Translations under genes and position numbers: made by a program
The notes under the pieces: model-generated
What the model was told of the DNA's origin: nothing
Seen by the model: only the letters and a program-made list of their open reading frames with translations
The model's database searches: none
Source: a virus
Reading direction: 5' to 3' (one strand)
IMG/VR virus record: IMGVR_UViG_3300027906_000158
Span: 1 to 23,258 of that record
Length of the DNA stretch: 23,258 bases
In this document: positions 5,108 through 23,258 of the stretch, piece after piece
Numbering within the stretch: the first letter of the stretch is position 1
Layout: every line of letters begins with the position of its first letter

Positions 5108-5506
5108 ATGGCAAAGGGTGCACTTACAAGTCGTGCCTTTAAAGATTTTGACTTAACCTTCCGTCGAAATCCGATAACCAACGACGTTAATACCTTAAAG
5201 AACGAAGAAGCAATCAAAGAGTCTGTAAAGAACATTGTTCGATACAACTTTTATGAGAAGCCTTTTCTGCCGAATTATGGTGGCAACGTAACTGGTGCCC
5301 TATTTGACTTATTTGATGTTGGCGAGTCAACGCTGATCGAAACTCAGATCAAAGATTGTATAAACACGTATGAACCCCGTGTAGTTTGCTATAGGGTTAT
5401 TACTGAGTTTGTAGAACGCGACAATGACTTACAAATTGAGATTTATTACCTGATTACAGGTCTTCCTAATGTTATAGATCACCTGGAAGTAATACTGAAG
5501 CGGTAA
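5108..5506 (+). CDS. 25: Baseplate wedge protein gp25
   Basis: This 132-residue protein belongs to the GPW/gp25 family, which forms part of the inner baseplate and joins wedge, hub and sheath start in contractile tails. Signatures seen are the N-terminal LTFRRNPITNDVNTLKNEEA, the central helix IKESVKNIVRYNFYEKPFLP with the following GGNVTGALFDLFD, and the diagnostic EPR motif in YEPRV at about residues 87-91. T4 gp25 has the same length (132). A late-type promoter box lies upstream. The stop TAA is followed immediately by the ATG of gene 6, so the two are translated together. Confidence 0.96.
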   Translation: MAKGALTSRAFKDFDLTFRRNPITNDVNTLKNEEAIKESVKNIVRYNFYEKPFLPNYGGNVTGALFDLFDVGESTLIETQIKDCINTYEPRVVCYRVITEFVERDNDLQIEIYYLITGLPNVIDHLEVILKR

Positions 5507-7381
5507 ATGGCTCTAACACAAGTCAATTCGTTAGAATTTAACGAAATTAAGGCACAATTAAAATCGTATTTGAGGAGTCAGAGTGAATTCTCTGACTATG
5601 ACTTCGAGGGATCTTCCTTATCGATACTTTTAGACGTATTAGCGTATAATTCTTACTATTCTTCTGTAAATGCGAACCTGTTAGTCAACGAGAACTTCCT
5701 TGACACCGCAGTTTTGCGTGAAAACGTAGTAAAGCTCTCGAAACTAATTGGTTACACTCCTAGAAGTGCTAGAAGTGCCCGTGCGAACTTCACTGTAGTG
5801 GTTCAAACCGTTTATGGAAGCGGTGCGAACGGTAGAGGGTACCCAGAAAGTGTCCAAATCAATAAAGGTGTATTCGCTTCCTTCACTGGAGAGAACAATT
5901 CCAATTACATCTTCTCCATACCCAAAGATTTAATCGTATCTGTCAACACACTAGATGGTAAAGCAACCTTTACTGGTGTGGTGTCTTATGAAGGTGTGTT
6001 TATAACTGACACCTTCGTTAAGAGTACTTCAGATAGACAAAGATTCATATTAGCTAACAATGGTGCGGATACTTCTTCTATGACAGTGGAAGTAACACGT
6101 GGCACATTGACTGATGCTTACCTAGAGGCGACTGATATTACTGCTCTCGATGGTACAAGTAAAATATTCTTCCTAGAGGAGTCAGAGACCAAAAGATCAG
6201 AGCTTATCTTTGGTGATGGCATCCTGGGAGACGAACTATTGAATGGAGATGTTATTGAGGCTACCTATACAACCTCTTCAGGTGCCGCTCCTAACGGTTT
6301 GACTGGATTTAGCTTTGCTGGTACAGTTAAGAACTCTCAGAACGATCCTATAACCTCTGGAATCACTTTAACACTAGATTCCGCTCCTGATGGGGGTGCT
6401 GATGCTGAAGGTATCGACTCAATTAAGTATTCTGCTCCAAAATTCTACTCTTCTTTCGGAAGGGCGGTAACTACTAAGGATTATGAAGCTATAATTCCTC
6501 AGATTTACCCAAACGTCCAATCCATCGTTGCTTTTGGTGGAGAAGAAGCAGATCCTCCTGAATATGGCAAAGTGATGGTTGTCATTAAGCCTAAAAACGC
6601 AGACAAACTATCAATTTCGGAAAAAGACGCGGTTCAGAAGAAGATTCGCTCATATTCCGTTGGTGCCGTAGAACCGAAGATCATGGATCCTTCAGTTCTG
6701 TATATTGACCTTACTTCTTTCGTATATTTCAACCCAAATGCGAGTAGAAGATCCCAGGACGATATTAAACAGATTATTTACCGAACATTAGAGAATTTAA
6801 ACAGTTCTGCTGAATTTAACAAGTTTGGCGGTAAGTTCAAATACTCCAAAGTTCAGAAAATCATTGATGACGCTGAACCAGCGATCACCTCAAACATCAC
6901 AAGAGTTAGAATGCGGAAAAACGTCATAGTGACGTTAAATCAGCGTTTCAACTACAAGATATGTTTTGGTAACCGTATTAATGCTCAATTAGAAACTCCA
7001 ACGTTTGAAACGAACGGATTTAAGAGAGCTGACGGTGGAAATCAGATTTATTACTTGAATGACGACGGTTTAGGTACTGTACGTTTATTCTATGTGAACG
7101 CAGACGGTTCTAAGCAGTATATCGGTGGTAACTGGGGTACAGTTGACTATGCCAATGGTAAAGTCACTATTAATGACCTTATTATTGATGAGGTAGTTAA
7201 TTCAACGGATAACCTTATTCAGTTCTCAGTTGTACCAGAATCCAATGACCTAGTTTCTCTCCGAGAAACCTATTTGACATTGGGCATAGATAACTTGGTT
7301 GTTAATGTTATTGATGATGAAATTTCCAGTGGTAGCAATACATCTGGAACAGGTATAATCCCAGAATCTAGTTATAGTTAA
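5507..7381 (+). CDS. 6: Baseplate wedge protein gp6 (baseplate J family)
   Basis: gp6 dimers build the inner ring of the baseplate and hold the wedges together. The 624 residues (T4: 660) show the family pattern. An N-terminal helical part carries FLDTAVLRENVVKLSKLIGY (about residues 65-84). FGDGILGDELLNGD at about 235 is the baseplate-J motif. A segment with YSAPKFYSSFGRAVTTKDYE at about 308-327 is typical of T4 gp6 relatives. The C-terminal third is beta-rich. It starts one base after the gp25 stop and is followed after three bases by the giant gene, as gene 7 follows gene 6 in T4. Confidence 0.96.
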   Translation: MALTQVNSLEFNEIKAQLKSYLRSQSEFSDYDFEGSSLSILLDVLAYNSYYSSVNANLLVNENFLDTAVLRENVVKLSKLIGYTPRSARSARANFTVVVQTVYGSGANGRGYPESVQINKGVFASFTGENNSNYIFSIPKDLIVSVNTLDGKATFTGVVSYEGVFITDTFVKSTSDRQRFILANNGADTSSMTVEVTRGTLTDAYLEATDITALDGTSKIFFLEESETKRSELIFGDGILGDELLNGDVIEATYTTSSGAAPNGLTGFSFAGTVKNSQNDPITSGITLTLDSAPDGGADAEGIDSIKYSAPKFYSSFGRAVTTKDYEAIIPQIYPNVQSIVAFGGEEADPPEYGKVMVVIKPKNADKLSISEKDAVQKKIRSYSVGAVEPKIMDPSVLYIDLTSFVYFNPNASRRSQDDIKQIIYRTLENLNSSAEFNKFGGKFKYSKVQKIIDDAEPAITSNITRVRMRKNVIVTLNQRFNYKICFGNRINAQLETPTFETNGFKRADGGNQIYYLNDDGLGTVRLFYVNADGSKQYIGGNWGTVDYANGKVTINDLIIDEVVNSTDNLIQFSVVPESNDLVSLRETYLTLGIDNLVVNVIDDEISSGSNTSGTGIIPESSYS

Positions 7382-7384
7382 TCC

Positions 7385-8134
7385 ATGCCAATAGAGCAGT
7401 CTTCGTGGAAGGTAGCTTCGTGGGTCACTCCCTCAACGCAGGTAACAGTTGACCCGATTGATGCTTCCGTATCACCAGAAAGTAGATCCAAGATCTCTGA
7501 TAGAGTTGAGGAACAAATCCCTCAGTTCATTAGGGATGATTATGGTGACTTTGTAACTTTTTTAAAGTATTACTATAAGGGATTAGAACTTAAGGGTAAT
7601 CCTGTAGACATCATACAGAACATAGATGAATATTATAACATAGACAAGCTGAATGACCTCATAGAGAAGACTACAGCGTCCTCTGGGGTTGATTCTACTA
7701 CTACAGTTATTGACGTTTCAAATACTAGGGATTTTCCTAAGGAAGGACTAATCCAGATTGATGAAGAGATCATATATTACAAGGATAAGAGTCAAACACA
7801 GTTTAAAGAGTGTACAAGGGGTTTCCATGCTACTACTAAGGTAGGTAGCCTCGGAGAATACACTTTTGCTTCATCTACATCAGCTACTCACACTTTTGGT
7901 GCGGATGTAATTAACTTAAACAATTTATTACCTCTATTTTTACTTCAGAGGTTTAGAGATCAGTTTGCTGAGTCATTCCCAAGCAAATTTGATGAAGGTA
8001 TTAAGCAATCTTCAGTTACTAAGCGTCTTAAGGACTTCTATGCTTCTAAGGGTACATCAAGGTCATTCAAATACTTGATGAGAGTGCTATTTGGCGTAGA
8101 GTCAACTATTGCTTACCCTAAAGACAGAATATTC
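7385..8134 (+). other. N-terminal wedge-attachment region of the giant protein
   Basis: Residues 48-67 read FIRDDYGDFVTFLKYYYKGL, and residues 217-240 include DFYASKGTSRSFKYLMRVLF followed by YPKD. Both are shared by the N-termini of many T4-like baseplate or tail-fibre-attachment proteins, where a 'D-Y-x-x-F-x-x-F-L-x-x-Y-Y' helix and an 'F-Y-x-x-K-G-T-x-x-S-F' helix occur in that order. Family knowledge, not the sequence alone, ties this to baseplate anchoring. Confidence 0.7.
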
Positions 8135-11100
8135 AAACCATCGGATGCCTTCTACACTGTTAGAGAGGTTATTCGTGCTACAGCGATTGAAGGTAACCCA
8201 GTAGAGCTAACTGGAGAGGTTTTATACCAAGCAGACGACCCAAATGACGTTGCTGTCAATACTGCGCGGATTTATGTTAAATCCGTAGTTGAAGTTTTCA
8301 CCGAAGACGGAAAAATCTACGAATTAGACGTAGATACGGAAAATGGTGCTGGAGAATTCACTACTCCGTACAAAACCATCCTCGCTGAAGATTTAAGCAA
8401 TAATTTAACAGATCAGATCGTTACTGTTGACTCTACACTCGGTTGGCCTGAGAAAAACGGTAGCATTCGGATTAATAAGGAAATAATCAACTATACCGAG
8501 AAGACGGTAAACCAATTCCTCGGTTGTACTCGTGCTAGACAGGATACAACTGTAAATAACCACATTGCGGGTTCTGAGGTCACTTCATCCTTTGAAATTT
8601 ACGGATATTCCAATAGAGACCAATCTAAGATCACTTTGAAGGTCTATGGAGGTACTAGAGGTGTATCTTTGGAATCTGGCGGTAAATATTACCTTCAAGA
8701 CTCAAAAGTCACCACTCCTGCTGCTCCAGGCTTCGATTCACTCGAACCTATCTGGGCTTCCTTCGTTTACAACGTTAAAAAGCTCTTAAACGGCACAACA
8801 CTGAATTTAGCGACTCCAGACAACACTGGGGCGGTTGTAGCGACTATTACGACCGATCAGAATCACGGATTGAAGCGTGATGACACTATTCGCATTTTAA
8901 ACGCTCCAGAAGACGTATATAACGATCAATTCACCGTTTTGGGTGTTGGAAGCTTTACGACCTTCGATATTAAGGTTCCATCAACTCCAATCGCAGGAAT
9001 TAGTCAAAATTTCCTAATTACGCGAGAATTCGCAAAAGCGACTTCTACAGATACGTCAATTCGCACAAATCTTGAAAATACGCCATCTGACGTTCAAAAT
9101 CTTTATAAATCCGCAGATCACGCAATTATTGCTTCTGCTGGAGTTCCTGGGCACGAAGTTGGTCCATTTAGCTCAGATGACCTTGATCCTGGTAATCAAC
9201 GCTATTTAAAGCGACTTCCACTTACTACAGTTACAAAATCCGAAAAAACGGCAACTCCAGTCGGTCAAGTCGGAATGGGAGTGAATGGAGTTCCATTTTT
9301 CTCATATAAGTCGGAAAACACGAAATTATACGGTGGAGTTAAGGGAATATCGATATTAACTGCTGGAGACGGTTATGATATCACTAATCCACCAATAGTA
9401 GAGTTTGAAACCCTTTGGAAGAAGGATACCGCGTATTTCCTTAATCAAAGAGTTAGGAACAGTGCTGGTAACCGTTATAAGAACTTAGGAAGCGGTAAGA
9501 GCGCAGAATTGGGTACAGAACCCACTCACCTCGATTCGTCGCTTGTACAGGACGGTGGATGTCTCTGGCAGTTTGAAGGCGAATCTGCGGAAGCAACCGT
9601 TGGTGTATCTGGTAGATTGTATGCTGTTAACGTAATACAGCAAGGAAGTGGATATATTGAAGCTCCTACCGTTGCTGTGTCTGGTGGAACTCCTGAGACA
9701 GAAGCTTCTGCTACAGCGACTATAACGAATGGAAAAGTCACTGCTATTGCTGTAAGTGCTTCTGGTATTGGATATGACTCTGTACCTACCGTTACCATCA
9801 CAGGTGGTGGTGGACAAGGTGCTACTGCTGAGGCAGTCGTCAGAGGCGGTCTAGAGACGATTACAGTGACTTCTGGTAAAGAAGGATCTAATTACAGTGA
9901 AAGACCTAATGTGACCCTTATATCGGGTTCTGGTGCTGTTGCGTATCCATCTATCGTTAATGGTAAGATTGTTTCCATTATCCTAACTTATGGTGGTGGT
10001 AACTACTATGGTCCTCCTGACGTTGTTATTGAAGGTGATGGAGTCGGTGCTGTTGCTTTTGCGACCATTGATGGAAATACTAGGCAAGTTACGAGTATTA
10101 GTATAACTAACGGCGGTATCGGGTATACTGCTGGTAAAACATTCGTATATGTCGTATATCCAGGATCTGGCGCGACTTTCCAAGTTCAGCTTCCAGAATT
10201 GAGTATAAACCTTGCTGCTACTCCAGACGAGCTCAGCAAACCATTATTTGCCGCACCGAAGGTAGCAGACCTTCATAATGGTGTATCCGTCAGAGGTGCC
10301 AATAATGGCATATATGGTGGAGAATACGGATATTTGTATAATCCAAAGAAACTGCGCTTCCTATTGGGAGATAATGTCAGTGATGTCAATAATTCCGAAT
10401 TAAACCCAACTGGACACTCTCCTATCATTGGATGGGCGTTTGATGGTCATCCTATCTACGGTCCTTACGGATATGCTGATAGAGAGAATAAAAACCCATA
10501 TAATCAGTTAAAACAGATGATCAGCTCTTATAGAGTTAGATCTAGTCGAGATGCGCTGATTACAGGTCTAAACGACGAAATGGGAACCTATATCGAAGAT
10601 TATGAGTATGTTGAAGGTTTAGGTGACTTAGACAAGTATAATGGTCGTTTCTGCGTAACTCCCGATTTTCCACTTGGTGTATACGCTTATTTCTGTACAT
10701 TAGATGGTACAACAGGTAATCCCAAATTCCCTTACTTTGTTGGACCTGAGTTCTATTCTCAGGCAGATGAAATTAACTGGAAGGGTAATGGTATTCAGAA
10801 GAACTTTACTGAAGATGCTGTAAGATATAAAGACCCATACGTCTATACTGACACTTCTATTGTTAGAAGGAAGGATCTTGGCGATCCTGTTGACTATGTT
10901 CTTGCTTTAGAGGATGCTACTACTCCTATTGTATTAGAAACTGATGATAGTGGTATATTCATTGGATTCGTTGATATTGGAATTGGATATTATGACTACT
11001 TCCCAACTGTACGTGGTGGAGCAGTTGATTCTCTATATGTTTCTGCTACCAACAGGTATTTCAGTGCGGGATTGGATCAGTACCTTATAGAAGGTCCAGG

Positions 11101-14100
11101 ATTCAGGTATAAAGTTAATGATAGACTGGTATTTGATGAAACAGGTACTGGTGGATCAGGTATATCTGCTAGAGTCTCTCTTATTGCTGGTGAAACCAGT
11201 AACGCATTGACTTATTCGGTTAATAGTACTACTGATGAGATTACAGCAGAGCTTACAACAGCAAGTGCTCATTATGTCAAGATAGATGACGCGATAGACA
11301 TCACAATTGGTGATAATGAAATTACGAGAGAGATAGATGTAAAGATCATTGGAGACAAGTACCACTTTAAGTATTTTGATCTTAGCAATTTTTATATCAG
11401 TTCTAAGGGTAGAATTCTGCAGGCTAATCTTACTATTACTGGAGGAACCACCTACACTAACGGAACCTATAATAATATACCGTTAAGTGGTGGAACTGGT
11501 AAGAATGCTTCTGCTAATATCACTGTAAGTGGAAATGCTGTAACATCTGTTGCTATTGTCAATCATGGTAAGGATTATAGTGATGATGATGTATTAACTG
11601 CTGCTACTTCTCAAATTGGTGGAACTGGTAGTGGGTTTGAAGTCAATATAGGAAATGTTGAAAAAACAGGTGGAATATCTCAGGATGACTGGAATATATT
11701 CGCTGGTAGTGGATATACCCCTGGAACATATACCAGAGTGCCACTTAAGAACGCTAGTGCCTCTTCAGGAGAAGATGCTGAGTTTACTATCGTAGTTGGT
11801 TCTGGTGGAGATGTAGAATCATGTACAGTTACTAAGGTAGGTAGTGGATATCTTGTTGGTGAGCAATTAGATCCAACAGATTCTGATATTGGTGGTGGTA
11901 GTGGATTCTACATCACACCTACTAAGGTTATTCAAGAATTTACTGGTAGAGGTACTAAAGCTCATCAACTTGAAATAGGTCATGAGGTAGTAATCACAGG
12001 AACTAACCCTGCTGATTATGACGGTACTCATACAATAACAGGAATCAGCACTGGAAGGAAATTCCAGTTCAACAAGGCAGTTGGTATCATTACAGATACT
12101 GCTATTCCTACTAATTGCGTTGTATACGTTAAAGAAGCAAAGTTGAACATGATCAATGGTCATCTTTATAAGTTTATTACCAATGATAGTTCCAACTTAG
12201 ATAGAAGATTAGAATTTACATTTGATAAAGAGAATACTAACGTATTCACCTATAAGAACGTAGTAGACTTCTCTAATGACCCTGTAACTGGTCAGCAGGA
12301 GTCTATTACCATATCACTTGTTGATGTACCAGGTACATTGTTCTATTTTGATATTAATGGCAATCTAACAGGTAGTTACTTTAGTGTAATCAATGATCCA
12401 TACTTAGGTTCTAACACAGTTACTGCTGTTGGCTCTGATACTACATTAACCTTCAATTTAGCCAGAGAACCAGAGTCTGCCTATAGTACAACTAACAAAC
12501 TGGCATACTCTACTAACTCAATATTCCCTTCTGGTGGTATATCCAAGATTAACATCGGTGACCCAGGTAGAAACTACTCTACTATTCCCAAGTTTACTGG
12601 TATAGAACGTGCTGGTGGCGGTGCTATGGCATATGCCACTATTTCTGGTGAAGTAGAAGACGTATCTGTTCTTGATGCTGGAATTGGATATAATGGCAGT
12701 CAGCCTCCAGCAGTTGTCTGTTCGATGCCTGATTATGTCGATCTAACTGTTGAACAAGTATTTGGAACGTTCGTTAAGGGTGACGTTGTTGTTTCTAAGC
12801 CCACATTGGATACTGACTGCGCTCGTGGTAAGGTAATCTGGTGGGATCCTAATACATCTATCGTCAGATTAGAGCCATTACGCAACAACCTCACTGGTGC
12901 TGCTAATAGAGGCTTTATCATGTTCACTACTGGTGCTACTGCTACTAATAAGATCTATGTTGGATCTAACCAAGCAGTCGTCAACAATGTTGGTGGAACA
13001 CAAGCAGCAATTGCTGCTGTTGTACCTAGCAGTGGTCCTGATATTGGTACCATTACCAATATGGCAGTTAATAATGGTGGTAGCAACTATAGAACTGCTC
13101 CAACTGTTTATATTGATGATCCTTACTATGGTGGTGTATTAACACTAAGCATTAATAGTCAGAATACCTCTGCCAACTTTACAGCTGGTACATATACTGT
13201 TTCTCAGGAGTCAGTAGCACCTACTGGTGGTACTGGAGCATCTATATCAGTAGTTGTTAATGCTGCTACACAGGATATAGAGAGTGCTACTGTAATAGAT
13301 GGTGGTGTTGTTTATTCTATTGGTGATTTAATCACAATTCGTGGTGAAGATATTACTGGTGGTACTTCTAATGATGATTTTGTACTGAAAGTAGAAAGTT
13401 TAACATATGTTAGAAAAGCAGTTACTGGTACAACGATTAATGCTTCTATAGACGAAGTAGTTGTAACTAACTCAGGTTCAGGTTACTTATCTGCTCCAGA
13501 TGTAGAGATATCTGGTGGTACAGGTCTTAGTGCTGCGTTGAGAGCTGAGATTATTGATGAAACTGTAAGCAGTATTATTATTGAAGCTGCTGGTACTAAA
13601 TTCCAGAACCCTCCTATCATTACTGTTAAGCAAGGTACTGGTTCAGGTGCTTCTATCCTATTAAAGTCTTCTGATCTAGGTAAGATCATTAATCTAGGTG
13701 GAGATAACATCACCTACAACTATTCTCATGATAGAACTCTAAAACCAGCGGTTAATACAACATATAACCTACAACTTACAAGAACTCAGATTGTTGACTT
13801 CTTCACTGTTACGAATGGTGGTTATGCCTTTGTAACTAAGCCTACTATTGAACTCGTAGGTGGTGGTGGATCTGGTGCTGTATTGAATCCAATCATTGAT
13901 AATGAGGTTATCCAAGCAATTACTATCATAAGTGCTGGTAAGGGTTATTCATCTACTCCTGATGTACAGGCTAGGATGACCCACTCATTCGTTGCTCTAC
14001 AATCTAACAGTACACTTAACTTCCCATATAATACTAAGATCCCTCTAGGGACAAAAGTTCAATTGGTTGAGATAGATGGTACTCTACCTGCTCCTTTGGC

Positions 14101-17100
14101 CACTAATACTGACTATTATGTCGTTGCTGCTACTATTGCTAATGGGCTAGCTGACAATCAGGTAAAACTAGCAACTACAGAGGTTAATGCTGTTAATGGA
14201 ACTACCATTACTATCACTTCTCCTCCTTCTATTGGACCTGGTGGAACATCCACATTCAACTTAACTACAACTGACTTAGGTGACAGTATAACTGTTACTA
14301 TGACACCAGCATCCTTTGCTATTGGTGAGAAACTGTATCAAGGTACTTCAACTGATTCCTATTCTGCTTTAGGTGAAGTTAAAGCTTGGGATCCTAAGGG
14401 TAGAATTCTTTCTGTTGAGATTGAGAGAGGTGAATTCACTATTGGACAACCTGTATTTGGTTTACAGTCGAAAGCCTTTGGTGAGATCCACGAATTTGAT
14501 AGATCTATTGCTAATTTCACAGTATCTCCTATTGCTACAGCAACTGCTGAGTGGAAGAGAACTACTGGTATACTTGATCTTAACGAACAGCGTATATACG
14601 ACTCTGATAGGTATCAAGAGTTCTCATATGTTGTTAACTCACCTATAAATGTCAAGCAGTGGAAGAACCAGTTCAAGACATCTGCTCACCCTGCAGGATT
14701 TAAGGTACTTGGTACTCAAACTGTTACCCAATCAGCATTTAAGAGATATAATAAGAAATCATATTACAACCCTGCCAACCCAGATCCTAATGATTGGTGG
14801 GAAGAGAGGTTTGGTCCAGCTGACCAGTCCTTTAATGGTACAACATACTTCGTACCTAAGCCATCTGCTTCTAACACTGGTAAACTCGCGAAGATACAGA
14901 ACTTCTTCATGGGTAAACCTGACTATACTGCTACAGTACCTACCAACGTACAGATTAGTGGTAAGCAGCTGCTTGACGTAAGAAAGATCCTGTCTGCTGT
15001 TGTAGACAAGATGGATAGTATAGAAGATAGGACATTTACCTTTGATGGTAGTAGTGCTTCTGTTGTATCTACCGCAAATGATCAGTTTGCCTTAACTAAT
15101 CATGGGTTTATAACTGGACAGAAGGTAAATTATAGTATCCTTGCTGATAGGTATCAGGATGCTAGAGATTTAGTACTTGCTAATATTGATTATATTATTG
15201 ATGAAACAATAGCATGGTTAGAGGTTACTTATCCTGGTCTGACAGATGGTACTAAACCTGACTATGACAGATCTACATGTGCTAGAGACCTTAGACTGGT
15301 AATTGTAGGTTGGACTAATGACTTACGTTATGGATCTAACTCATTTACATGGGATGTAGCAGATCAGTATATTGGTGGTGTAGGTGTTATTCAGAACAAG
15401 TTTGCTGATGGTAAATTCCTTATTCTGAAGAATAAGCAACTCATTGCTGAGGAAGCTTTGGGTATGATGAAGGCAAGTAATCCTGCCTTTAGTGTACATA
15501 ATGGTAATGATCAGGATTGCTATGATGACATCATCGATGTATTAGAAGCAATTTGCTATAACATGACATATGGTGGTAACAGTGAAGTATATGATGCTGC
15601 CAAGTATTATGTTGATGGTGGACACGTTGATAGTGTAGAAACTGAAGTTAATGAGGCATTTAACCATGCCAGAGACCTTGCTATCAAGGTTATGCAGAAC
15701 TATCCATTAACTCTGGTTCATTCAACAGAAACACAGTATTTTGATACTAGCATTACTACTGATACTGCTGGTTACATCAACAACCTAGTTGCTGATGCTA
15801 GAACTTTAATTATTTCTAACAAGAATCAGATCGCTGCTTGTGCTGTAGATCGAATGGAATCAGTTTATCCTTCCCACGTTGTTACTGGTGGTAGGATAGA
15901 GTGTGAATATGATATTAGAGACTTTATCGACGTAATGGTCGAGAACCTAGCTCGTGGTGGTAACGACGAAGTTTGGGATGCTGCAAACTACTACGTAACA
16001 GGTGGATTTGTTATTGGTGAGGAAGTAGAGTCAACATATGCCTTTGAACAGGCAAAACTAATCACTCAGGACGTTTTACAGAATAAGACAGTCGTTGATA
16101 TGGCTGGTCAAGTATTTGACAATAGTATTACTCAAGATGTTGCTCCTCCTGACACCCCTGGATATATCAAGTGTTCTAGTGTAGTTTCTACAGTAGCTAC
16201 TCTATATGATATTGTTATTAATGCTATTAATCAACCACTTAATCACTCTAATCTAACCAGAACTCCTAAGACTGGTGGTAATAGAGGATCTTGTTCTACT
16301 GTTGATTCCGCATTGACATCAATGATGGCAATCATCACTGATGCTATTACTAATGATAACTTAACTGGTATTACTAGAACTAATCCAGCAAACCACATCT
16401 ATCATATTGGTAATGAAGAGCAGGAAACTATAGCTGCTATTCAATATGCTAGAGACCTTGCTTTACAGGCAGTACAGAACCAGTTACCTACTAAGGATAA
16501 CCAAATTACTGTTGATCAGAATGGTTGTACTGATGTAAGAGCAACTATTACCACATTAGCAGAGATTGTATGGAAAGGTATTGATAATCCTTCCAGTATT
16601 CCAGAGAGAAATCCTGGTACGTATCCAGAAATAAGAACTGGGGGTGCTATTGGTGGATATACAGTGCATGCTCCTACGGCAGCTGCTTATGTACCGACAT
16701 CAGGTCTGTTTACTATAACCTTAGCGGGTCATGGATTCAGAGAAGGTGAAAAAGTACAGTTCCCTGACAACACATTTAGATTTACATGCTCTAAGGATAA
16801 TCATGCTACTGAGCATACCTATCCTAGATCAACTGATCCTGCTAGTGGTAAGTGGTTAGAGATTCTTGCTACAACTAAGGATACCTTCATTGTTAATGTT
16901 GGTATTACTACAGACGTTTCAACTCATACCTTCGTTTCTGCCACAGGTACACATACATTTGTAAGTGGTGCATCTAATGCTATTACAGTAACAGGTGGTG
17001 CTACACATACTGCAGCATCTGGAACCACCTATGATCCATTATCAGGTGATATGGTAATTGAGATAGGATCTCACAGTCTTACAACTGCCAATACAGTCAC

Positions 17101-20100
17101 TATTGCTGATGGTGCGGTTACATTTACATGTTCTAAGGATAATCATGGTAGTAATCACGCATATCCTAGAGCAACTGACCCTGTTTCTGGTCAGACATTG
17201 AATATTACTGCTGTAACTGGCACTACTATTACTGTTAATGTAACACCTGCTACTAAGATCTGGAGACAGGTTGGTTCTAATGATTTCTATGTTATCCGTG
17301 TAGATGATGATAATATTAAGCTTGCTCAGACTAAAGCACTTGCTCTTGCTGGTAGCCCAGTAGAAATCACTGGATTATCAACTGCTACACAGCATAAGTT
17401 TAAGGTTAAGTTTGATGGTGAGACTGTAGACTATCAGTTAAGGTATAGAAGTACTGCTCAGACACCATTGAATAAGAACTGCTTGATGGTTGTTATTAAT
17501 GGTATCGTACAGAACCCAGCTTCATATAGTCTTTCTGGTAGTACACTAACCTTTGGTGAAGCACCATTAGAAGGTTCTGAGTGTATTGTTATGCACTATA
17601 AGAGATCTGATATTGCTACTAACTTCCAGTTGGATCAGTTTGGTGATGTTATCACAGGACTTAATACTGGTGATGGTCTATATCAAGGTTCTGGATATAC
17701 TCCAGGTACCTATAGTGGTGTAGCATTTACCAATAAGAGAGGTAATACTGGTAGTGGAGCAACTGGTGACATAGTGGTTACTAATGTTCTTGATAGAGCA
17801 ACTCATAACACTAATAACCAATATGCTGACGCTCGTACATTAATTGATTCTAATGCTGAGATAATCGCTGACATTGCTGTTGGTCTTCTTAACAAGTATG
17901 GTATTGCTACTGATAATAGAGTAGCAGATGGTGCTAACTTGATCTTAATGAACAAGGAGATCATTGCCAAGGAAGCAGTTGACAGAATGCATGCTGACAT
18001 TCCTTATACTATCGCATCTAGCAGAGAATTAGATGCCTATAATCTATTACAAGGTAATAGAGAGTTCTTAGCAGAAGAGGCATATAATCGCTTCAGCACA
18101 GTTGATTTCCCCAACTACGTCCATTCCCAAGGATACACTAGACAAGACTGTATAGATGACCTTCTAGACATCATAGACGCGGTTTCCTTTAACCTTGTAC
18201 ATGGTGCTAACAATAAGGTATATGATGCTGCTTATTTCTATACTACTGCCTATGATTCTGGTAGTGTTGTACAAGGTGAAGAGCAACAGACTCTTGCTGC
18301 TATAGGTCAACTTGAGACCTTAATGCATGACGTAGTTCAGAACAAGCTTGTTAAGAAAACTGGTAATAGAACTCTAACTCCTACAGGTGCCACCTACAAT
18401 CCTACTACTGGATGGTTCACAGTAACTTCCAATGCTCATGGATTGAAGGATGGTGATAAGATCCAGATGCTTGATGGTGCTATCACTATGACCTGTACAT
18501 ATGGTAGCGGTGGTCAAGGATCATATCCTAGATCAACTGATCCTATCAGTGGTAAGTGGGTAGAGGTTGTTAACGTAACTGAGAATACATTCAATGTACA
18601 AGTATTGGATGCTGTTCCTTCTACTAATCAAGATGTTCATACATGGTTCTCTGGTGATACCAATTCTATACTTGTATGGAAGGATCATGGATATGAACAG
18701 TATACTGAGAACACTACTTACATATTCAATGGATGTAATACTGTAACATCAGCAATAACAACACTTCTTGACATCATTGAGACTGCTATCAATACTGACT
18801 TGATGATTCATGTCAATAAGACAGAACCTACTCTCTTTGTTGAACCAACAGGAGATGATCAGGACTGTGTAGATGACGTTGTTGACTGTTTAGAAGCTAT
18901 TGCTCTTAACCTTAAGTTTGGTGGTAATAGTGAGGTATATGATGCTGCTAAGTACTACGTTGATGGTGCCCACGTTGCTGGTGAAGAGATTCATACCATC
19001 TATGCTTTCCGTGAAGCAAACAAATTAGCACAACAAGCTGCTAGAAACAAAGCATTTAATATAACTGGATCACATGGTCTTACTCAGAAGTTTGATGGTG
19101 GTTTAACCAGACCTGATGGTGACCCATGTGCTACTGTATGCTCTACTATTGACACTCTATGGAACATAGTTGAAGTAGCAGTTAATACTAACTCTATGAG
19201 TACGTTTACTAGAACTGCTCCTAGTGGATTTACTGTTCCTGGACTTGGACCTGATCAGTGTAAGGCAGATACAGTTGATGTACTACAAGCAGTCGGTGTT
19301 AACATAGCATTTGGTGGTAACCATGTATTATGGGATACCATTAATATGTACTTCACTGGTGCTCATGTTGTTGGTGAAGAAGCACAGACCAAGTATGTCT
19401 TTGAGGAAGCCCGTCAGATGGCACTCAAAGCAATTAATAACGAAACATTCGAGACTTATTCAAATTTAAGTCTTACTACTAGACAGCAGTATAAGGATCC
19501 TTCTATTACATTATTCTCTACTACTCAGACTGCTTCCTTTACTCCTACTGCTGCTACTTACACAGAAGCAACTGGTGCTCTAGAATTGACCATCGGATCT
19601 CACAGTTTAACTACTGGAATGAGGGTCCAGATTGAAGATGGTTCTCTAACATTCAAGTGTAGTGCTGATGGTAATGTATCACATCACATTTATCCTAGAT
19701 CTACTGACTTCGCATACGGTAAGTCAATACCTATTACTTCTGTATCAGGTACAACAATTACAGTTAATGTAACTAAGATACCTTCGTTTGATTTGAACGT
19801 CACAGATGGTTCATATGACCCTACAACGGGTGACTTGACCATGAAGGTATACAATACAGCATTCAACGTTACTAATGCCACCTACAACGCAACTTCAGGT
19901 AGTATGACAGTAACTATTGGATCTCATTCCTTATTGGTTGGTGAGCACATTATGTTTGCTACTAACTCCCTCACATTTACATGTGATATGGATGAGAACT
20001 CTGAGAAGAAGACATATCCTTCAGAGAAAGATCCATTCTATAACAAACCACTTAAGATTATTGCTGTAACTGGTACAGGACTAACAGTTAATGTTGGTAC

Positions 20101-23100
20101 ATCACCTGCTGTTACTCATGATGTAACTAATGGTGTATACAACGCATTAACAGGTGACGTAGAGCTTACTATTGGTAATCATATTTTAGAAGTAGGTAAT
20201 ACAGTTAGGGTTTCTGACCTAGGTCTTAAGTTCCAGTGTATGATGGATCTATATCAGACAGATCATGCTTATCCTAGATCAACCATTGACGAACATACAG
20301 CAACTGGTGCTACATTCAATACAGAGTCAGGTATCGTTACTATAACGGTCAATGGCCATGAGATGAATGATGGTGACTGGGTTAAATTGGATGACAATGC
20401 TTTAACCTTCACATGTACTCTTGCTGGTGGTAACCATTCTTATCCACGTGCTAGTGATCCTATATCTGGTAAGTGGGTTAAGGTATCCAATTGTACTACT
20501 AATACATTTGACATTCAGTGCTTGGAGAATACTCCTTGTACTAATGCTAATACTCATACATTCGTATCTGGTGCTGCTAATGCTATCAAGCAGAAGAGAG
20601 ATAGAGCACATAATAATGCTCTGAAGATTAGTGCTAAGACTGACACTACTATTACAATTAACGTAGGTAAGTCATCTGATACTTCTACTCACAGATGGAA
20701 GCCTGGATATACAGGTACTAACGTTGTTACTAGCGGTGGAGCACATACTCACACTTGGGCTGGTGGTACTGCTACTAACGCAGCTATCCTTCCTCATGGA
20801 ATACAGTCACAGAAGAAATTAACTGCTGATACTGCTGCTTACAATCCAACAACAGGTATAGTAACATTCACTGTTCCTGATCACGGACTCACCAATACTG
20901 ATGAGCTTAAGATTGTAGATAATTCATTAACATTCACATGTACTCATGGTGCTGGTAATCATTCATACCCACGTCCTTCTGATCCAATAAGTCAGAGATG
21001 GACTAAGATTGATAATATCACTAGAGATACATTTACTATCCAATGTCTAGACACTGTACCTTCTACTAACACAACTGCTCATACATTTGTATCTGCGGCT
21101 GCTGATGGTATTGTAGTTAGAGGTGCTACCGTCAAGATCGCTGATGGGGCCTTAGGTTTCACCTGTGAGATGGATGATGATTACAGCACTAAGACATATC
21201 CTAGAACTACAACTATTACTCATACAGTAACTGATGCTGCTTACAACCCAACAACAGGTATTTTAACACCTACCGTTGCTGGTCACGGAATGACTTCTGG
21301 AGACTATGTTAAGTTCGCTGATGATTCACTAACCTTCACATGTACACAGGGTGGTGGTAATCACACATATCCAAGATCAACAGATGAAGCTTCTGGTGCT
21401 TGGTTAGAAATAAGTAACGTCACTGCTAATACATTTGATGTACGTGTTGTTGATATTCTACCTTCTACTAACGTCACTGCTCATACATTTGTTTCAGCAA
21501 CTTCTGGTGGATTGACACAGAAGCATGATAGAGCATATGGTCAACCAAGACAGGTTGTTAGGTCTACACCTGATACCATTACTGTTAACGTTGGTGCTGC
21601 TCCTGCTGTAACTCATACACCTACTAATGCTGCCTATGATCCTGCTGCTGGTACTATGGAAGTTACCATTGGTGCTCATAATCTAATTGCTGGTACATCT
21701 GTTAAGATGAAGGAGGGTGCTATATCCTTAAGTTGTACTGCTGGTGCTGGAACTCATACCTATGTCGGTGGAACAGTTGCCGCTGCTTGTACTATTGACG
21801 GTACAGCAAAGACAGTCACTAATGCTGCCTATACTCCTGGTAATGGTAACTTAGAATTAACAATAGGATCCCACAGTTATACAACCAGTGACACCTGTAC
21901 AATTGCTACAGGAGCACTTCAATTTACTTGTGACTTAGATAGTCATGGATCTACTCATTCATATCCAAGGACAACAGATCCTGCTTATACTACTGCCTTA
22001 GCAATTACTGCTGTAACTGGTACAACAGTTACTGTTGATGTTGGTGCTGTTGGAGTAACCAGTCAAACTAAGTCATATCCAAGAGCAAAACTAGATGGTA
22101 AGAATCCTACTGCTATCACATACACTCCAGCAACGGGTGTTATGGCATGTACTCTTGCTGCTCATGGCATGGAGAATGGTGATTGGGTAAGATTCGTTAA
22201 GGGTGGTGTAAACTTCACATGTACACATGGTGATGGTACACATAGTTACCCACGTGCTACAGACCCATATTACAATAAGTGGCTTAAGGTTTCTAACGTT
22301 GCTTCTGGATCGTTTAATGTTAATGTTGGAATATCTTCTAACACTACAACTCATACATTCGTAGCTGCTACTGGATTAACACCAACTACTGCGTCATATG
22401 ATCCAGCAACAGGTGTTATGACAACAACTATTCCTGATCATGGTCTTAGCAATGGAGAGCATGTCAAGATTGACGATGGAGCAATAACATTTACATGTGA
22501 TGAAGATAGTCATGGTAGTAACCACGCATATCCACGTGCTAGTGATCCTATTAGTGGTAAGTACGTTGAGGTATATGATGTAACTAAGGATACTTTCAAG
22601 GTACAGGTATTAGAAGATGTTATAGCAACTAATCTACAGCCACATCTATTTGTTTCTGCTGTTTCTAACAGTATACACCGTGCTGCTCTTCAGCATAAGC
22701 GTGATATGTCATTCGACACCGCAGTTAATATCTCAGCGGTCAGTGCTACTACTATCACACTTGATGTTGGTGCTACAAGTTCTACATCAACTCACACATT
22801 CCAGTCAGCACTTGCTGATAGTGTAATTTCAGGTGGAGATCATGTACATACATTTAAGTCTGCTACTAACCCTGCTATAACAGTTTCTACAACTGGATAT
22901 ACTCACACATTCCTATCTGCCACATCTGGAGCAATTAAGAATGGACAATGGGGATGTACTCATGTACAGTCTGCTATCGATACCTTAATGGATCTAGCAT
23001 ATACTGCTATCAATCAGGGTAACTTCAGTGGTCTATCAAGAACAGTTGGTAATAATGGTGACGGTTATGAAACTGCCCCAGTTATTACAGCTTCAGGTGG

Positions 23101-23258
23101 TTCTCCAACCACTGCTGGTGGATTTGTTCCTGTACTATCTAAAGAGGGTAATATTAAGAGCATAACAGTTAACGCAGCTGGTGCTGGATATGCCAATGTT
23201 CCTACGATTACTATACTCTCTAACACTGGTTCTAATGCTACTGCCACTGCTACTGTTA
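7385..23258 (+). CDS. Giant modular baseplate/fibre protein, partial at right edge
   Basis: One frame stays open from ATG 7385 to the window end: 5,291 codons with no stop. It starts three bases after gp6, the place of T4 gene 7 (about 1,030 residues). Order of parts: wedge-type N-terminus (residues 1-300), a region with a second CTR motif (300-700), Gly/Tyr beta repeats (750-935), YHYH domain (about 935-1130), more beta repeats (1340-2200), alpha-helical D-x-x-C-x-D-D repeats (about 2630-2900 and 3580-4020), and 14 F-x-C/YPR modules (about 3100-5100). Gly/Tyr repeats return at the edge. I recall cyanophage genes in this position being named VrlC-like, but cannot confirm it. A peripheral baseplate fibre or adhesin is inferred. 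No good Shine-Dalgarno sequence; coupling to gp6 is likely. Confidence 0.9.
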   Translation, partial: MPIEQSSWKVASWVTPSTQVTVDPIDASVSPESRSKISDRVEEQIPQFIRDDYGDFVTFLKYYYKGLELKGNPVDIIQNIDEYYNIDKLNDLIEKTTASSGVDSTTTVIDVSNTRDFPKEGLIQIDEEIIYYKDKSQTQFKECTRGFHATTKVGSLGEYTFASSTSATHTFGADVINLNNLLPLFLLQRFRDQFAESFPSKFDEGIKQSSVTKRLKDFYASKGTSRSFKYLMRVLFGVESTIAYPKDRIFKPSDAFYTVREVIRATAIEGNPVELTGEVLYQADDPNDVAVNTARIYVKSVVEVFTEDGKIYELDVDTENGAGEFTTPYKTILAEDLSNNLTDQIVTVDSTLGWPEKNGSIRINKEIINYTEKTVNQFLGCTRARQDTTVNNHIAGSEVTSSFEIYGYSNRDQSKITLKVYGGTRGVSLESGGKYYLQDSKVTTPAAPGFDSLEPIWASFVYNVKKLLNGTTLNLATPDNTGAVVATITTDQNHGLKRDDTIRILNAPEDVYNDQFTVLGVGSFTTFDIKVPSTPIAGISQNFLITREFAKATSTDTSIRTNLENTPSDVQNLYKSADHAIIASAGVPGHEVGPFSSDDLDPGNQRYLKRLPLTTVTKSEKTATPVGQVGMGVNGVPFFSYKSENTKLYGGVKGISILTAGDGYDITNPPIVEFETLWKKDTAYFLNQRVRNSAGNRYKNLGSGKSAELGTEPTHLDSSLVQDGGCLWQFEGESAEATVGVSGRLYAVNVIQQGSGYIEAPTVAVSGGTPETEASATATITNGKVTAIAVSASGIGYDSVPTVTITGGGGQGATAEAVVRGGLETITVTSGKEGSNYSERPNVTLISGSGAVAYPSIVNGKIVSIILTYGGGNYYGPPDVVIEGDGVGAVAFATIDGNTRQVTSISITNGGIGYTAGKTFVYVVYPGSGATFQVQLPELSINLAATPDELSKPLFAAPKVADLHNGVSVRGANNGIYGGEYGYLYNPKKLRFLLGDNVSDVNNSELNPTGHSPIIGWAFDGHPIYGPYGYADRENKNPYNQLKQMISSYRVRSSRDALITGLNDEMGTYIEDYEYVEGLGDLDKYNGRFCVTPDFPLGVYAYFCTLDGTTGNPKFPYFVGPEFYSQADEINWKGNGIQKNFTEDAVRYKDPYVYTDTSIVRRKDLGDPVDYVLALEDATTPIVLETDDSGIFIGFVDIGIGYYDYFPTVRGGAVDSLYVSATNRYFSAGLDQYLIEGPGFRYKVNDRLVFDETGTGGSGISARVSLIAGETSNALTYSVNSTTDEITAELTTASAHYVKIDDAIDITIGDNEITREIDVKIIGDKYHFKYFDLSNFYISSKGRILQANLTITGGTTYTNGTYNNIPLSGGTGKNASANITVSGNAVTSVAIVNHGKDYSDDDVLTAATSQIGGTGSGFEVNIGNVEKTGGISQDDWNIFAGSGYTPGTYTRVPLKNASASSGEDAEFTIVVGSGGDVESCTVTKVGSGYLVGEQLDPTDSDIGGGSGFYITPTKVIQEFTGRGTKAHQLEIGHEVVITGTNPADYDGTHTITGISTGRKFQFNKAVGIITDTAIPTNCVVYVKEAKLNMINGHLYKFITNDSSNLDRRLEFTFDKENTNVFTYKNVVDFSNDPVTGQQESITISLVDVPGTLFYFDINGNLTGSYFSVINDPYLGSNTVTAVGSDTTLTFNLAREPESAYSTTNKLAYSTNSIFPSGGISKINIGDPGRNYSTIPKFTGIERAGGGAMAYATISGEVEDVSVLDAGIGYNGSQPPAVVCSMPDYVDLTVEQVFGTFVKGDVVVSKPTLDTDCARGKVIWWDPNTSIVRLEPLRNNLTGAANRGFIMFTTGATATNKIYVGSNQAVVNNVGGTQAAIAAVVPSSGPDIGTITNMAVNNGGSNYRTAPTVYIDDPYYGGVLTLSINSQNTSANFTAGTYTVSQESVAPTGGTGASISVVVNAATQDIESATVIDGGVVYSIGDLITIRGEDITGGTSNDDFVLKVESLTYVRKAVTGTTINASIDEVVVTNSGSGYLSAPDVEISGGTGLSAALRAEIIDETVSSIIIEAAGTKFQNPPIITVKQGTGSGASILLKSSDLGKIINLGGDNITYNYSHDRTLKPAVNTTYNLQLTRTQIVDFFTVTNGGYAFVTKPTIELVGGGGSGAVLNPIIDNEVIQAITIISAGKGYSSTPDVQARMTHSFVALQSNSTLNFPYNTKIPLGTKVQLVEIDGTLPAPLATNTDYYVVAATIANGLADNQVKLATTEVNAVNGTTITITSPPSIGPGGTSTFNLTTTDLGDSITVTMTPASFAIGEKLYQGTSTDSYSALGEVKAWDPKGRILSVEIERGEFTIGQPVFGLQSKAFGEIHEFDRSIANFTVSPIATATAEWKRTTGILDLNEQRIYDSDRYQEFSYVVNSPINVKQWKNQFKTSAHPAGFKVLGTQTVTQSAFKRYNKKSYYNPANPDPNDWWEERFGPADQSFNGTTYFVPKPSASNTGKLAKIQNFFMGKPDYTATVPTNVQISGKQLLDVRKILSAVVDKMDSIEDRTFTFDGSSASVVSTANDQFALTNHGFITGQKVNYSILADRYQDARDLVLANIDYIIDETIAWLEVTYPGLTDGTKPDYDRSTCARDLRLVIVGWTNDLRYGSNSFTWDVADQYIGGVGVIQNKFADGKFLILKNKQLIAEEALGMMKASNPAFSVHNGNDQDCYDDIIDVLEAICYNMTYGGNSEVYDAAKYYVDGGHVDSVETEVNEAFNHARDLAIKVMQNYPLTLVHSTETQYFDTSITTDTAGYINNLVADARTLIISNKNQIAACAVDRMESVYPSHVVTGGRIECEYDIRDFIDVMVENLARGGNDEVWDAANYYVTGGFVIGEEVESTYAFEQAKLITQDVLQNKTVVDMAGQVFDNSITQDVAPPDTPGYIKCSSVVSTVATLYDIVINAINQPLNHSNLTRTPKTGGNRGSCSTVDSALTSMMAIITDAITNDNLTGITRTNPANHIYHIGNEEQETIAAIQYARDLALQAVQNQLPTKDNQITVDQNGCTDVRATITTLAEIVWKGIDNPSSIPERNPGTYPEIRTGGAIGGYTVHAPTAAAYVPTSGLFTITLAGHGFREGEKVQFPDNTFRFTCSKDNHATEHTYPRSTDPASGKWLEILATTKDTFIVNVGITTDVSTHTFVSATGTHTFVSGASNAITVTGGATHTAASGTTYDPLSGDMVIEIGSHSLTTANTVTIADGAVTFTCSKDNHGSNHAYPRATDPVSGQTLNITAVTGTTITVNVTPATKIWRQVGSNDFYVIRVDDDNIKLAQTKALALAGSPVEITGLSTATQHKFKVKFDGETVDYQLRYRSTAQTPLNKNCLMVVINGIVQNPASYSLSGSTLTFGEAPLEGSECIVMHYKRSDIATNFQLDQFGDVITGLNTGDGLYQGSGYTPGTYSGVAFTNKRGNTGSGATGDIVVTNVLDRATHNTNNQYADARTLIDSNAEIIADIAVGLLNKYGIATDNRVADGANLILMNKEIIAKEAVDRMHADIPYTIASSRELDAYNLLQGNREFLAEEAYNRFSTVDFPNYVHSQGYTRQDCIDDLLDIIDAVSFNLVHGANNKVYDAAYFYTTAYDSGSVVQGEEQQTLAAIGQLETLMHDVVQNKLVKKTGNRTLTPTGATYNPTTGWFTVTSNAHGLKDGDKIQMLDGAITMTCTYGSGGQGSYPRSTDPISGKWVEVVNVTENTFNVQVLDAVPSTNQDVHTWFSGDTNSILVWKDHGYEQYTENTTYIFNGCNTVTSAITTLLDIIETAINTDLMIHVNKTEPTLFVEPTGDDQDCVDDVVDCLEAIALNLKFGGNSEVYDAAKYYVDGAHVAGEEIHTIYAFREANKLAQQAARNKAFNITGSHGLTQKFDGGLTRPDGDPCATVCSTIDTLWNIVEVAVNTNSMSTFTRTAPSGFTVPGLGPDQCKADTVDVLQAVGVNIAFGGNHVLWDTINMYFTGAHVVGEEAQTKYVFEEARQMALKAINNETFETYSNLSLTTRQQYKDPSITLFSTTQTASFTPTAATYTEATGALELTIGSHSLTTGMRVQIEDGSLTFKCSADGNVSHHIYPRSTDFAYGKSIPITSVSGTTITVNVTKIPSFDLNVTDGSYDPTTGDLTMKVYNTAFNVTNATYNATSGSMTVTIGSHSLLVGEHIMFATNSLTFTCDMDENSEKKTYPSEKDPFYNKPLKIIAVTGTGLTVNVGTSPAVTHDVTNGVYNALTGDVELTIGNHILEVGNTVRVSDLGLKFQCMMDLYQTDHAYPRSTIDEHTATGATFNTESGIVTITVNGHEMNDGDWVKLDDNALTFTCTLAGGNHSYPRASDPISGKWVKVSNCTTNTFDIQCLENTPCTNANTHTFVSGAANAIKQKRDRAHNNALKISAKTDTTITINVGKSSDTSTHRWKPGYTGTNVVTSGGAHTHTWAGGTATNAAILPHGIQSQKKLTADTAAYNPTTGIVTFTVPDHGLTNTDELKIVDNSLTFTCTHGAGNHSYPRPSDPISQRWTKIDNITRDTFTIQCLDTVPSTNTTAHTFVSAAADGIVVRGATVKIADGALGFTCEMDDDYSTKTYPRTTTITHTVTDAAYNPTTGILTPTVAGHGMTSGDYVKFADDSLTFTCTQGGGNHTYPRSTDEASGAWLEISNVTANTFDVRVVDILPSTNVTAHTFVSATSGGLTQKHDRAYGQPRQVVRSTPDTITVNVGAAPAVTHTPTNAAYDPAAGTMEVTIGAHNLIAGTSVKMKEGAISLSCTAGAGTHTYVGGTVAAACTIDGTAKTVTNAAYTPGNGNLELTIGSHSYTTSDTCTIATGALQFTCDLDSHGSTHSYPRTTDPAYTTALAITAVTGTTVTVDVGAVGVTSQTKSYPRAKLDGKNPTAITYTPATGVMACTLAAHGMENGDWVRFVKGGVNFTCTHGDGTHSYPRATDPYYNKWLKVSNVASGSFNVNVGISSNTTTHTFVAATGLTPTTASYDPATGVMTTTIPDHGLSNGEHVKIDDGAITFTCDEDSHGSNHAYPRASDPISGKYVEVYDVTKDTFKVQVLEDVIATNLQPHLFVSAVSNSIHRAALQHKRDMSFDTAVNISAVSATTITLDVGATSSTSTHTFQSALADSVISGGDHVHTFKSATNPAITVSTTGYTHTFLSATSGAIKNGQWGCTHVQSAIDTLMDLAYTAINQGNFSGLSRTVGNNGDGYETAPVITASGGSPTTAGGFVPVLSKEGNIKSITVNAAGAGYANVPTITILSNTGSNATATATV
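9620..10192 (+). repeat. Gly/Tyr beta-repeat block 1 in the giant protein
   Basis: At least five consecutive units share the plan G-x-G-Y-x-x-x-P-x-V-x-(I/V)-x-G-G followed by A-x-A-x-(V/I): for example GSGYIEAPTVAVSGG, GIGYDSVPTVTITGGGG, GGNYYGPPDVVIEGDG. They suggest a stacked beta structure. Related units return at about 12540-13980 and 23060-23258. Confidence 0.75.
10193..10780 (+). other. YHYH domain inside the giant protein
   Basis: Residues 1010-1028 read GHSPIIGWAFDGHPIYGPYG, the hallmark of the YHYH family. The distal family features follow: a GDLDKYNGRFCVTPDFPLGV segment near 1080, then YAYFCTLD and FPYFVGPEF. The family is known mainly from secreted or surface bacterial proteins of unclear function. 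The domain appears complete. Confidence 0.8.
11437..11880 (+). repeat. GTY-type beta repeats in the giant protein
   Basis: Two units of a second plan lie here: T-Y-x-x-G-T-Y-x-x-(I/V)-P-L, then a Gly-rich strand, then V-x-x-G-x-x-Y-x-x-x-(D/E). They begin at TYTNGTYNNIPLSGGTG and GYTPGTYTRVPLKNAS. Single related units occur near 13170 (FTAGTYTVSQ) and 17695 (GYTPGTYSGVAFTN). Confidence 0.65.
12540..13980 (+). repeat. Gly/Tyr beta-repeat block 2 in the giant protein
   Basis: About seven diverged units of the same plan as block 1, such as GRNYSTIPKFTGIERAGG, GGSNYRTAPTVYIDDP, GSGYLSAPDVEISGGTG and GKGYSSTPDVQA. Spacing is irregular, with a GTY-type unit inserted near 13170. Confidence 0.65.
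15270..19450 (+). repeat. Dispersed alpha-helical repeats (D-x-x-C-x-D-D type)
   Basis: Five clear copies, at about 15506-15700, 15902-16095, 18138-18350, 18854-19060 and 19251-19445, plus a diverged one near 15275-15470. Each reads roughly D-Q-D-C-x-D-D-x-x-D-x-L-E-A-I, then G-G-N-S-E-V-Y-D-A-A-K-Y-Y-V-D-G, then a Glu-rich helix with A-F-x-x-A-x-x-L. Copies 1 and 4 are close (GGNSEVYDAAKYYVDG in both). Unlike the rest of the protein they look helical. Two F-x-C modules lie between copies 2 and 3, and a third between copies 3 and 4. Confidence 0.8.
16680..22680 (+). repeat. Array of 14 F-x-C / Y-P-R beta modules
   Basis: Fourteen modules share the plan Y-(D/N)-P-x-T-G, then H-G-(L/M)-x-x-G-D, then (L/I)-T-F-(T/K)-C, then H-x-Y-P-R-(S/A)-(T/S)-D-P, then K-W-(V/L)-x-V. 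Their Cys codons start at 16787, 17129, 18494, 19658, 19982, 20237, 20414, 20939, 21164, 21341, 21734, 21929, 22220 and 22496. One type ends with T-N-x-x-x-H-T-F-V-S-A, the other with V-T-G-T-T-x-T-V-N-V-G. Copies 5, 6, 9 and 11 are the most diverged. All lie in the giant frame. Confidence 0.85.

Follow-up and report, generated by a model that had tools for sequence, protein, structure and literature searches.

Giant gp7 proteins are already known in cyanophages and are the norm among marine T4-like cyanophages. At this one locus, the encoded protein measures 482 aa in phage ACP17, 503 aa in BUCT608, 523 aa in pf16, 607 aa in BUCT-ZZ01, 767 aa in Cr30, 874 aa in Pelagibacter phage Mosig and 1,006 aa in phiN3, and then 1,937 aa in S-CREM2, 3,048 aa in S-PM2, 4,156 aa in S-SM2, 4,446 to 4,458 aa in P-HM1, P-HM2 and MED4-213, 5,195 aa in P-SSM2, 6,603 aa in P-RSM4 and 6,619 aa in S-SZBM1. 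A great length is therefore not remarkable in itself for a cyanophage gp7.

Two members of this series have been detected in virions. S-SZBM1_208, a homologous gp7 of 6,619 aa and 724 kDa, was identified by 71 peptides at 13.5% coverage, reported without peptide positions or chain integrity (PMC9146016), and S-CREM2 gp122, the 1,937-aa gp7, by 91 unique peptides (PMC10665884). We checked the locus and the cores of S-SZBM1_208 and found them consistent with gp7. The presence of the present protein in virions is thus supported through these homologues only, by published mass spectrometry. Furthermore, the gp7 of S-PM2 (S-PM2d081) and two module-rich giants of the same phage (d088 and d218) acquired early non-synonymous mutations during coexistence with Synechococcus (PMC9910659).

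The window analyzed here is an entire IMG/VR record of 23,258 bases, most of which is taken up by a single giant gene (7385 to 23257, plus strand, as are all features given below for this gene and for gp25, gp6 and the PAAR gene). In our reading, to which we give a probability of roughly 0.85, it encodes the gp7 of a P-HM2-like T4-like cyanophage, a protein whose core persists as two separated blocks, whose insert and tail serve as host-contacting arms and whose helical modules are related to phycobiliproteins. The best named relatives are indeed the gp7 proteins of Prochlorococcus phages P-HM2, P-HM1 and MED4-213 (57 to 59% over 400 aa). These Eurybiavirus proteins resemble that of the window in locus and in the order of parts, being 52 to 59% identical to it across the N-terminal 1,650 aa and about 55% identical across aa 1855 to 2668. 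However, they end at 4,446 to 4,458 aa and have two phycobiliprotein-like modules instead of six, as well as fewer FCCH-like modules. S-SZBM1_208, annotated as baseplate wedge initiator, also has the gp7 cores, lies between gp6 and gp8 and holds seven phycobiliprotein-like modules, but its cores are only about 30 to 40% identical to those of the window and its N-core contains an extra insert of about 520 aa. The gp7 of T4 (1,032 aa; PDB 5HX2 and 5IV5) shares core blocks 641 to 831 and 864 to 896 with the window protein; it has an N-terminal part of 640 aa of its own, its blocks lie only about 30 aa apart and long arms are absent. An earlier reading of this DNA (the original prediction) overlooked the phycobiliprotein-like modules as well as the prevalence of giant gp7 among marine T4-like cyanophages.

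A giant open frame at the gene 7 locus

The frame begins with an ATG at 7385 and stays open for 5,291 codons, up to 23257, without a stop before the record end. The other five frames contain 219 to 717 stops each across the same stretch, with a longest open run of 121 codons, and in 200 base-shuffles of it no open frame exceeded 193 codons. This confirms the frame of at least 5,291 codons after gp6, amid short ones, that had been predicted. Upstream, we found the baseplate wedge genes gp25 (5108 to 5506; PF04965, E 2.1e-10) and gp6 (5507 to 7381; PF21379, E 2.4e-19; phrog_219, E 4.8e-179). The order gp25-gp6-[ORF]-gp8 was seen in named phages and in IMG/VR contigs; the window has gp6 upstream, and its complete relatives have gp8 downstream.

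Independent contigs show this gene with gp6 on one side and gp8 on the other, each time as a single closed frame. In the closest complete relative, IMGVR_UViG_3300020472_000049 (G001), this frame stops after 5,909 aa, 23 bases ahead of gp8. It is 74% identical to the window frame over 5,161 aligned aa, and the alignment reaches the last codon of the window (residue 5291, corresponding to 5301 in G001). Closed gp7 frames of 5,915 aa (G008), 6,757 aa (G013) and, in several cases, 4,728 to 4,942 aa were found in other IMG/VR contigs, and one contig (L006) is near-identical to the window frame (98.8% over 3,158 aa) and keeps the frame. Because this uninterrupted frame recurs at the same place in independent contigs, the assembly error or frameshift that the original prediction had considered is ruled out and, judged by these comparisons, the frame is one real gene. 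The window is predicted to lack about 610 to 620 C-terminal residues of a gp7 of about 5,900 codons. The full length, which had been called unknown, is largely settled in this way by the relatives (about 5.9 k aa); the stop itself lies beyond the record.

Between the window and G001, synonymous exceeded non-synonymous change per site in every comparable segment. pN/pS ranged from 0.20 to 0.51 across segments, being lowest in the gp7 cores (0.20 to 0.23) and highest in the FCCH array (0.49 to 0.51). With values taken as 0.20 to 0.49 in every segment, the entire frame is therefore under purifying selection. A search for DNA tandem repeats in the window found none, and the repeats of this gene show at the protein level only.

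A split core with an insert and a tail

Two segments of the frame correspond to gp7. The N-core (7478 to 8650, aa 32 to 422) represents the helical core of gp7, with a beta insert of about 70 aa near aa 95 to 175. The C-core (14270 to 14791, aa 2296 to 2469), which contains the motif ...DSDRYQEFSYVVNSPINVKQWKNQFKTSAHPAGF..., matches T4 gp7 at about 802 to 896 and the C-terminal part of the short gp7s. Both match, collinearly, the gp7s of 482 to 1,006 aa from other T4-like phages, with profile alignment probabilities of 99.8 and 99.5, respectively, against this short family. Thus, residues 9 to 154 of BUCT608 gp7 align with aa 41 to 281 of the window frame and residues 308 to 429 with aa 2319 to 2439. 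In a profile comparison of the N-terminal region with T4 gp7, as the original prediction had suggested, the N-core (aa 208 to 329) matched T4 residues 724 to 824 (Prob 96.7, E 3.4e-10). The direct match of the C-core to T4 gp7 802 to 896 (matching part 851 to 896) is weak taken alone (E 3.3e-4, Prob 38), and we make this assignment because of the collinearity and of the short family. Indeed, the profile of T4-type gp7 aligns with that of the short family (Prob 98.4, E 1.1e-14, T4 641 to 831), T4 gp7 864 to 896 also aligns with the C-core block of that family, and when the short-family profile was searched against all PDB sequences, T4 gp7 ranked first (E 1.3e-8, T4 647 to 759).

As controls, seven other segments of giant gp7 gave no match to T4 gp7 (E 0.09 to 0.67), and the gp7 core profiles did not match gp6, gp8, gp25 or VrlC. 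By profile, every cyanophage and short gp7 tested had both cores in order and a single significant match to the C-core, and in 469 phages each record had the C-core at a single place. T4 gp7 was reached by family profiles only, a BLAST-type search of the window N-terminus against PDB sequences yielding nothing useful. Similarly, the T4 Pfam models Gp7_helical, Gp7_5th and Gp7_6th matched T4 alone at their curated cut-offs, and the window frame gave sub-threshold PF23786 matches at two places. The short wedge gp7s miss these models as well, and this is a limit of T4-narrow models rather than a defining feature of the giants.

The spacing between the core blocks is about 30 residues in T4, 150 to 770 in short gp7s, 1,390 in S-CREM2 and 1,870 to 2,520 in the giants (about 1,900 in the window). 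Past the C-core, the tail measures 3 residues in S-CREM2, 1,776 in P-HM2, about 3,430 in G001 and about 3,400 in the window protein. On this evidence, we identify the frame as gp7, greatly extended and not replaced, and its phage as a virus of marine cyanobacteria. The predicted position of the gene and its nature as a greatly extended multi-domain wedge protein were borne out by the locus and the cores. The suggestion that gp7 had been replaced was wrong, since both conserved T4-type core segments are present and collinear. Marine T4-like phages have thus kept gp7 and let it grow about tenfold, from about 500 to about 5,900 aa in the present case, through a modular tail and an insertion into the wedge core at one defined point. 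This shows structural biologists where to look in the cyanophage baseplate.

The insert consists of GSGY-type beta repeats and a YHYH domain. The repeats occupy its start (9626 to 10135, aa 748 to 917; model pLDDT about 85) and its end (11438 to 13969, aa 1352 to 2195), on either side of the YHYH domain (10316 to 10705, aa 978 to 1107; PF14240, E 1.3e-26). In the tail, six helical modules are combined with about 15 FCCH-like beta modules and with more GSGY repeats. Two FCCH-like modules lie at 16673 to 17242 (aa 3097 to 3286), one at 18377 to 18607 (aa 3665 to 3741) and 12 whole or partial ones in an array at 19541 to 22612 (aa 4053 to 5076), the fastest-evolving part of the gene. The GSGY repeats at the record end (23042 to 23257, aa 5220 to 5291) are followed in G001 by about 620 more aa. 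Additionally, copy number varies between close relatives, as G001 lacks a stretch of about 97 aa that the window has (aa 3665 to 3762). The FCCH-like module is confined to cyanophage and marine virus records, and a sequence search against the PDB found no relative of it. A Foldseek search with the whole model of aa 1 to 1150 gave no meaningful global match (endosialidase, TM 0.07) and picked up a local FCCH-like domain only.

Three observations concern these repeats. A Cys, a His and an Asp are invariant in the FCCH-like modules of 16673 to 22612 (F-T-C ... Y-P-R-x-x-D). Residues 261 to 308 of BUCT608 gp7 (L077:5517-7025) form a GSGY repeat with a sub-threshold likeness to domain I of the T4 tail-sheath protein gp18 (Pfam E 3.3e-5; PDB profile matches, E 2e-5), and this repeat is possibly a surface domain common to sheath and wedge. 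Finally, residues 199 to 332, approximately, of P-HM2 gp8 (L002:33393-34907) weakly match, at E 1e-9 to 1e-3, repeats in gp7 and in further giant frames that these phages encode, which may point to a domain common to two wedge proteins.

Two other accounts of the gene must be weighed at this point. Cyano- and pelagimyophages have been reported to be devoid of gp7, with VrlC as its substitute (PMC7029224), in which case the giant would be an unrelated fiber or adhesin between gp6 and gp8. This would agree with the failure of direct BLAST to reach T4 gp7, but both core blocks match T4 gp7 by profile, and genes annotated as VrlC are located past gp8 whether the phage has a short or a giant gp7, so that both coexist. 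We regard the substitution as extremely unlikely, and the split-core gp7, as recognized by profile, contradicts the published absence. The YHYH domain, predicted to be a metal-dependent hydrolase with a His/Asp metal site (PMC7824862), could instead make the gene a cell-wall-cleaving device. The domain is recognized by its profile score, but its naming motif reads Y-A-Y-F at aa 1100 to 1103 and no invariant His was found in it among 38 relatives; because of this, most of the proposed metal site appears to be lost, and we see hardly any chance that cleavage is the role of the gene. Most likely, gp7 continues to build the wedge, and its insert and tail are long surface arms involved in the first host contact.

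In such a baseplate, the two core blocks would lie packed against each other in all six wedges, as they do in T4, and the insert of about 1,900 aa and the tail of about 3,400 aa would project from the baseplate rim as long arms, in six copies of about 650 kDa. Together, the arms would form an outer baseplate layer that touches the host surface initially or reversibly, and gain, loss and diversification of their modules would keep pace with the host. The insert could also fold back on the baseplate instead of projecting. The faster evolution of the tail and the single mutations in a relative give no more than a hint of positive selection. As for the long flexible adhesin originally proposed, the added modules and the fast evolution would fit an exposed role in host contact, and we retain it as an interpretation.

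Helical modules and phycobiliproteins

The six helical modules are located at 15158 to 15397 (aa 2592 to 2671, with a C-A-R-D site), 15407 to 15700 (aa 2675 to 2772), 15794 to 16084 (aa 2804 to 2900, with the conserved Cys at aa 2840), 18032 to 18343 (aa 3550 to 3653), 18776 to 19048 (aa 3798 to 3888) and 19178 to 19441 (aa 3932 to 4019). The fourth is the best PF00502 place of the window, at a sub-threshold E of 0.024. Their link to phycobiliproteins arose from searches that were not designed for it, the Pfam phycobilisome model having been run after the PDB profile and Foldseek searches. When a profile was built from the six window copies, its only PDB matches were phycobiliproteins (E 0.19 to 1.2). 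With a 32-copy profile from several phages, hmmsearch against the whole PDB placed phycocyanin alpha at the top (E 4.1e-5), and all 60 matches listed were phycobiliproteins. Against 35 cyanobacterial phycocyanin subunits, the module profile aligned with a score of 51.6 (hhalign; Prob 95.1, E 3e-8), compared to a maximum of 20.3 for 100 column shuffles and 10.7 for the reversed profile. Foldseek with the predicted structure of aa 2300 to 3460 ranked phycoerythrins first (probability 1.00, TM 0.60 to 0.73 by target length, E 0.009 to 0.07), our predicted models being of moderate confidence only (mean pLDDT 72.7 and 53.4).

The most conserved positions of the module are a Cys (81 of 82 copies) and an Asp three residues later (82 of 82). 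Their columns coincide, unforced, with the bilin-attachment Cys and the bilin-contacting Asp of phycobiliproteins, the two residues that hold the bilin in this family (Cys-84 and Asp-87 in phycocyanin alpha). The homologous stretch shared with cyanobacterial phycobiliproteins (PF00502; alpha and beta subunits of phycocyanin and phycoerythrin) covers about 70 aa including this site. The phage modules differ from phycobiliproteins in being arranged in tandem, in measuring about 80 to 100 aa, in lying inside a virion protein, in having mostly lost the Arg of the Cys-x-Arg-Asp site and in having no Pfam-level score. Because the module reaches 8.6 bits, below the curated PF00502 cut-off of 22.2, we file it by profile evidence as phycobiliprotein-homologous and not as a phycobiliprotein. 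Sequence comparison shows the homology, and makes the Cys and Asp a candidate bilin site only. The modules would descend from cyanobacterial phycobiliproteins, or share an ancestor with them, with the Cys and Asp of the bilin site kept. In a search of literature outside subscription journals, no report of phycobiliprotein-like domains in phage virions was found.

The module was found in 336 phage records, all of them cyanophages; this is weak support because the FCCH module is equally restricted. It also occurs in giant structural genes other than gp7, such as S-PM2d088, S-PM2d218 and, in P-HM2, a frame of 3.7 k aa. P-SSM2 and S-CREM2 are free of the module. Of the 17 complete genomes of cyanophages tested, eight have both CpeT (PF06206) and modules, three have modules without CpeT (P-SSM7, ACG-2014f and S-SKS1) and six have neither (Fisher, approximately 0.007, with relatedness ignored and the idea drawn from the first ten genomes). 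A perfect match in those first ten was weakened by the seven further cyanophages, in which alone the association was not significant, and it holds in one direction only. Bilin reductase genes did not track with the modules across cyanophages. We observed cpeT about 1.5 to 3 kb upstream, on the same strand, of the giant module-bearing gene or its first module in S-PM2 (LN828717, 154408 to 167723), S-H9-2 (152307 to 159406) and S-RSM4 (170002 to 177038), which represent three cyanophage genera.

How far the likeness goes can be weighed from these data. A generic helical bundle scoring by chance would explain why single copies stay under the Pfam cut-off without individual PF00502 matches, and why the Foldseek E values are modest for a model of such confidence. 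Yet all 60 matches listed in the PDB profile search are phycobiliproteins, the profile alignment stands far above the shuffled and reversed controls, the Cys and Asp columns fall into register by themselves and the top Foldseek places go to phycobiliproteins, which leaves convergence very unlikely. It is rather probable that the modules derive from phycobiliproteins but have lost the chromophore and act as rigid helical spacers, with the Cys and Asp kept for folding or cross-linking. In line with this, the Arg beside the Asp is present in 35/35 phycobiliproteins and only 14/35 module copies, three phages have modules without CpeT, and the adjacent FCCH-like modules, unrelated to bilins, share the trait of an invariant Cys. 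The near-complete conservation of Cys and Asp despite about 34% identity among copies speaks against such spacers, as does the finding that all CpeT-bearing phages tested hold modules and that the module-free ones all are without CpeT. As a bolder reading, the baseplates and fibers of marine cyanophages would bear covalently bilin-loaded modules, the bilin coming from phage PebS or from the host and phage CpeT loading the phage's own virion protein and not the host antenna; we consider this doubtful. Phage CpeT has been assumed to serve the host antenna (PMC10452541), and a phycobiliprotein-derived module in virion proteins would be a candidate acceptor for this phage-encoded bilin lyase. If this were true, the virion pigment might be a light sensor, allowing light-dependent adsorption, or an antenna-like tag. 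The light dependence of cyanophage adsorption thereby becomes testable on a named protein.

Neighboring genes

At the left end of the record, positions 1 to 1900 hold short, mostly unassigned frames only, one of which (708 to 1148) matches phrog_16022, of unknown function. A PurN-type phosphoribosylglycinamide formyltransferase is encoded at 2471 to 3025 (PF00551, E 7.2e-50), and its PHROG is labeled as cyanobacterial. It is an auxiliary metabolic gene, consistent with a cyanophage. Ahead of gp25, a PAAR-motif spike-tip protein is encoded at 4500 to 4787 (PF05488, E 1.4e-9). The gene immediately upstream of it (4006 to 4506) carries the PHROG label "toxin" (phrog_23903, E 9.6e-45). The same pair also precedes gp25 and gp6 in P-HM1, P-HM2 and MED4-213, and its position suggests that the phrog_23903 protein belongs to the baseplate or the spike and is not a toxin.
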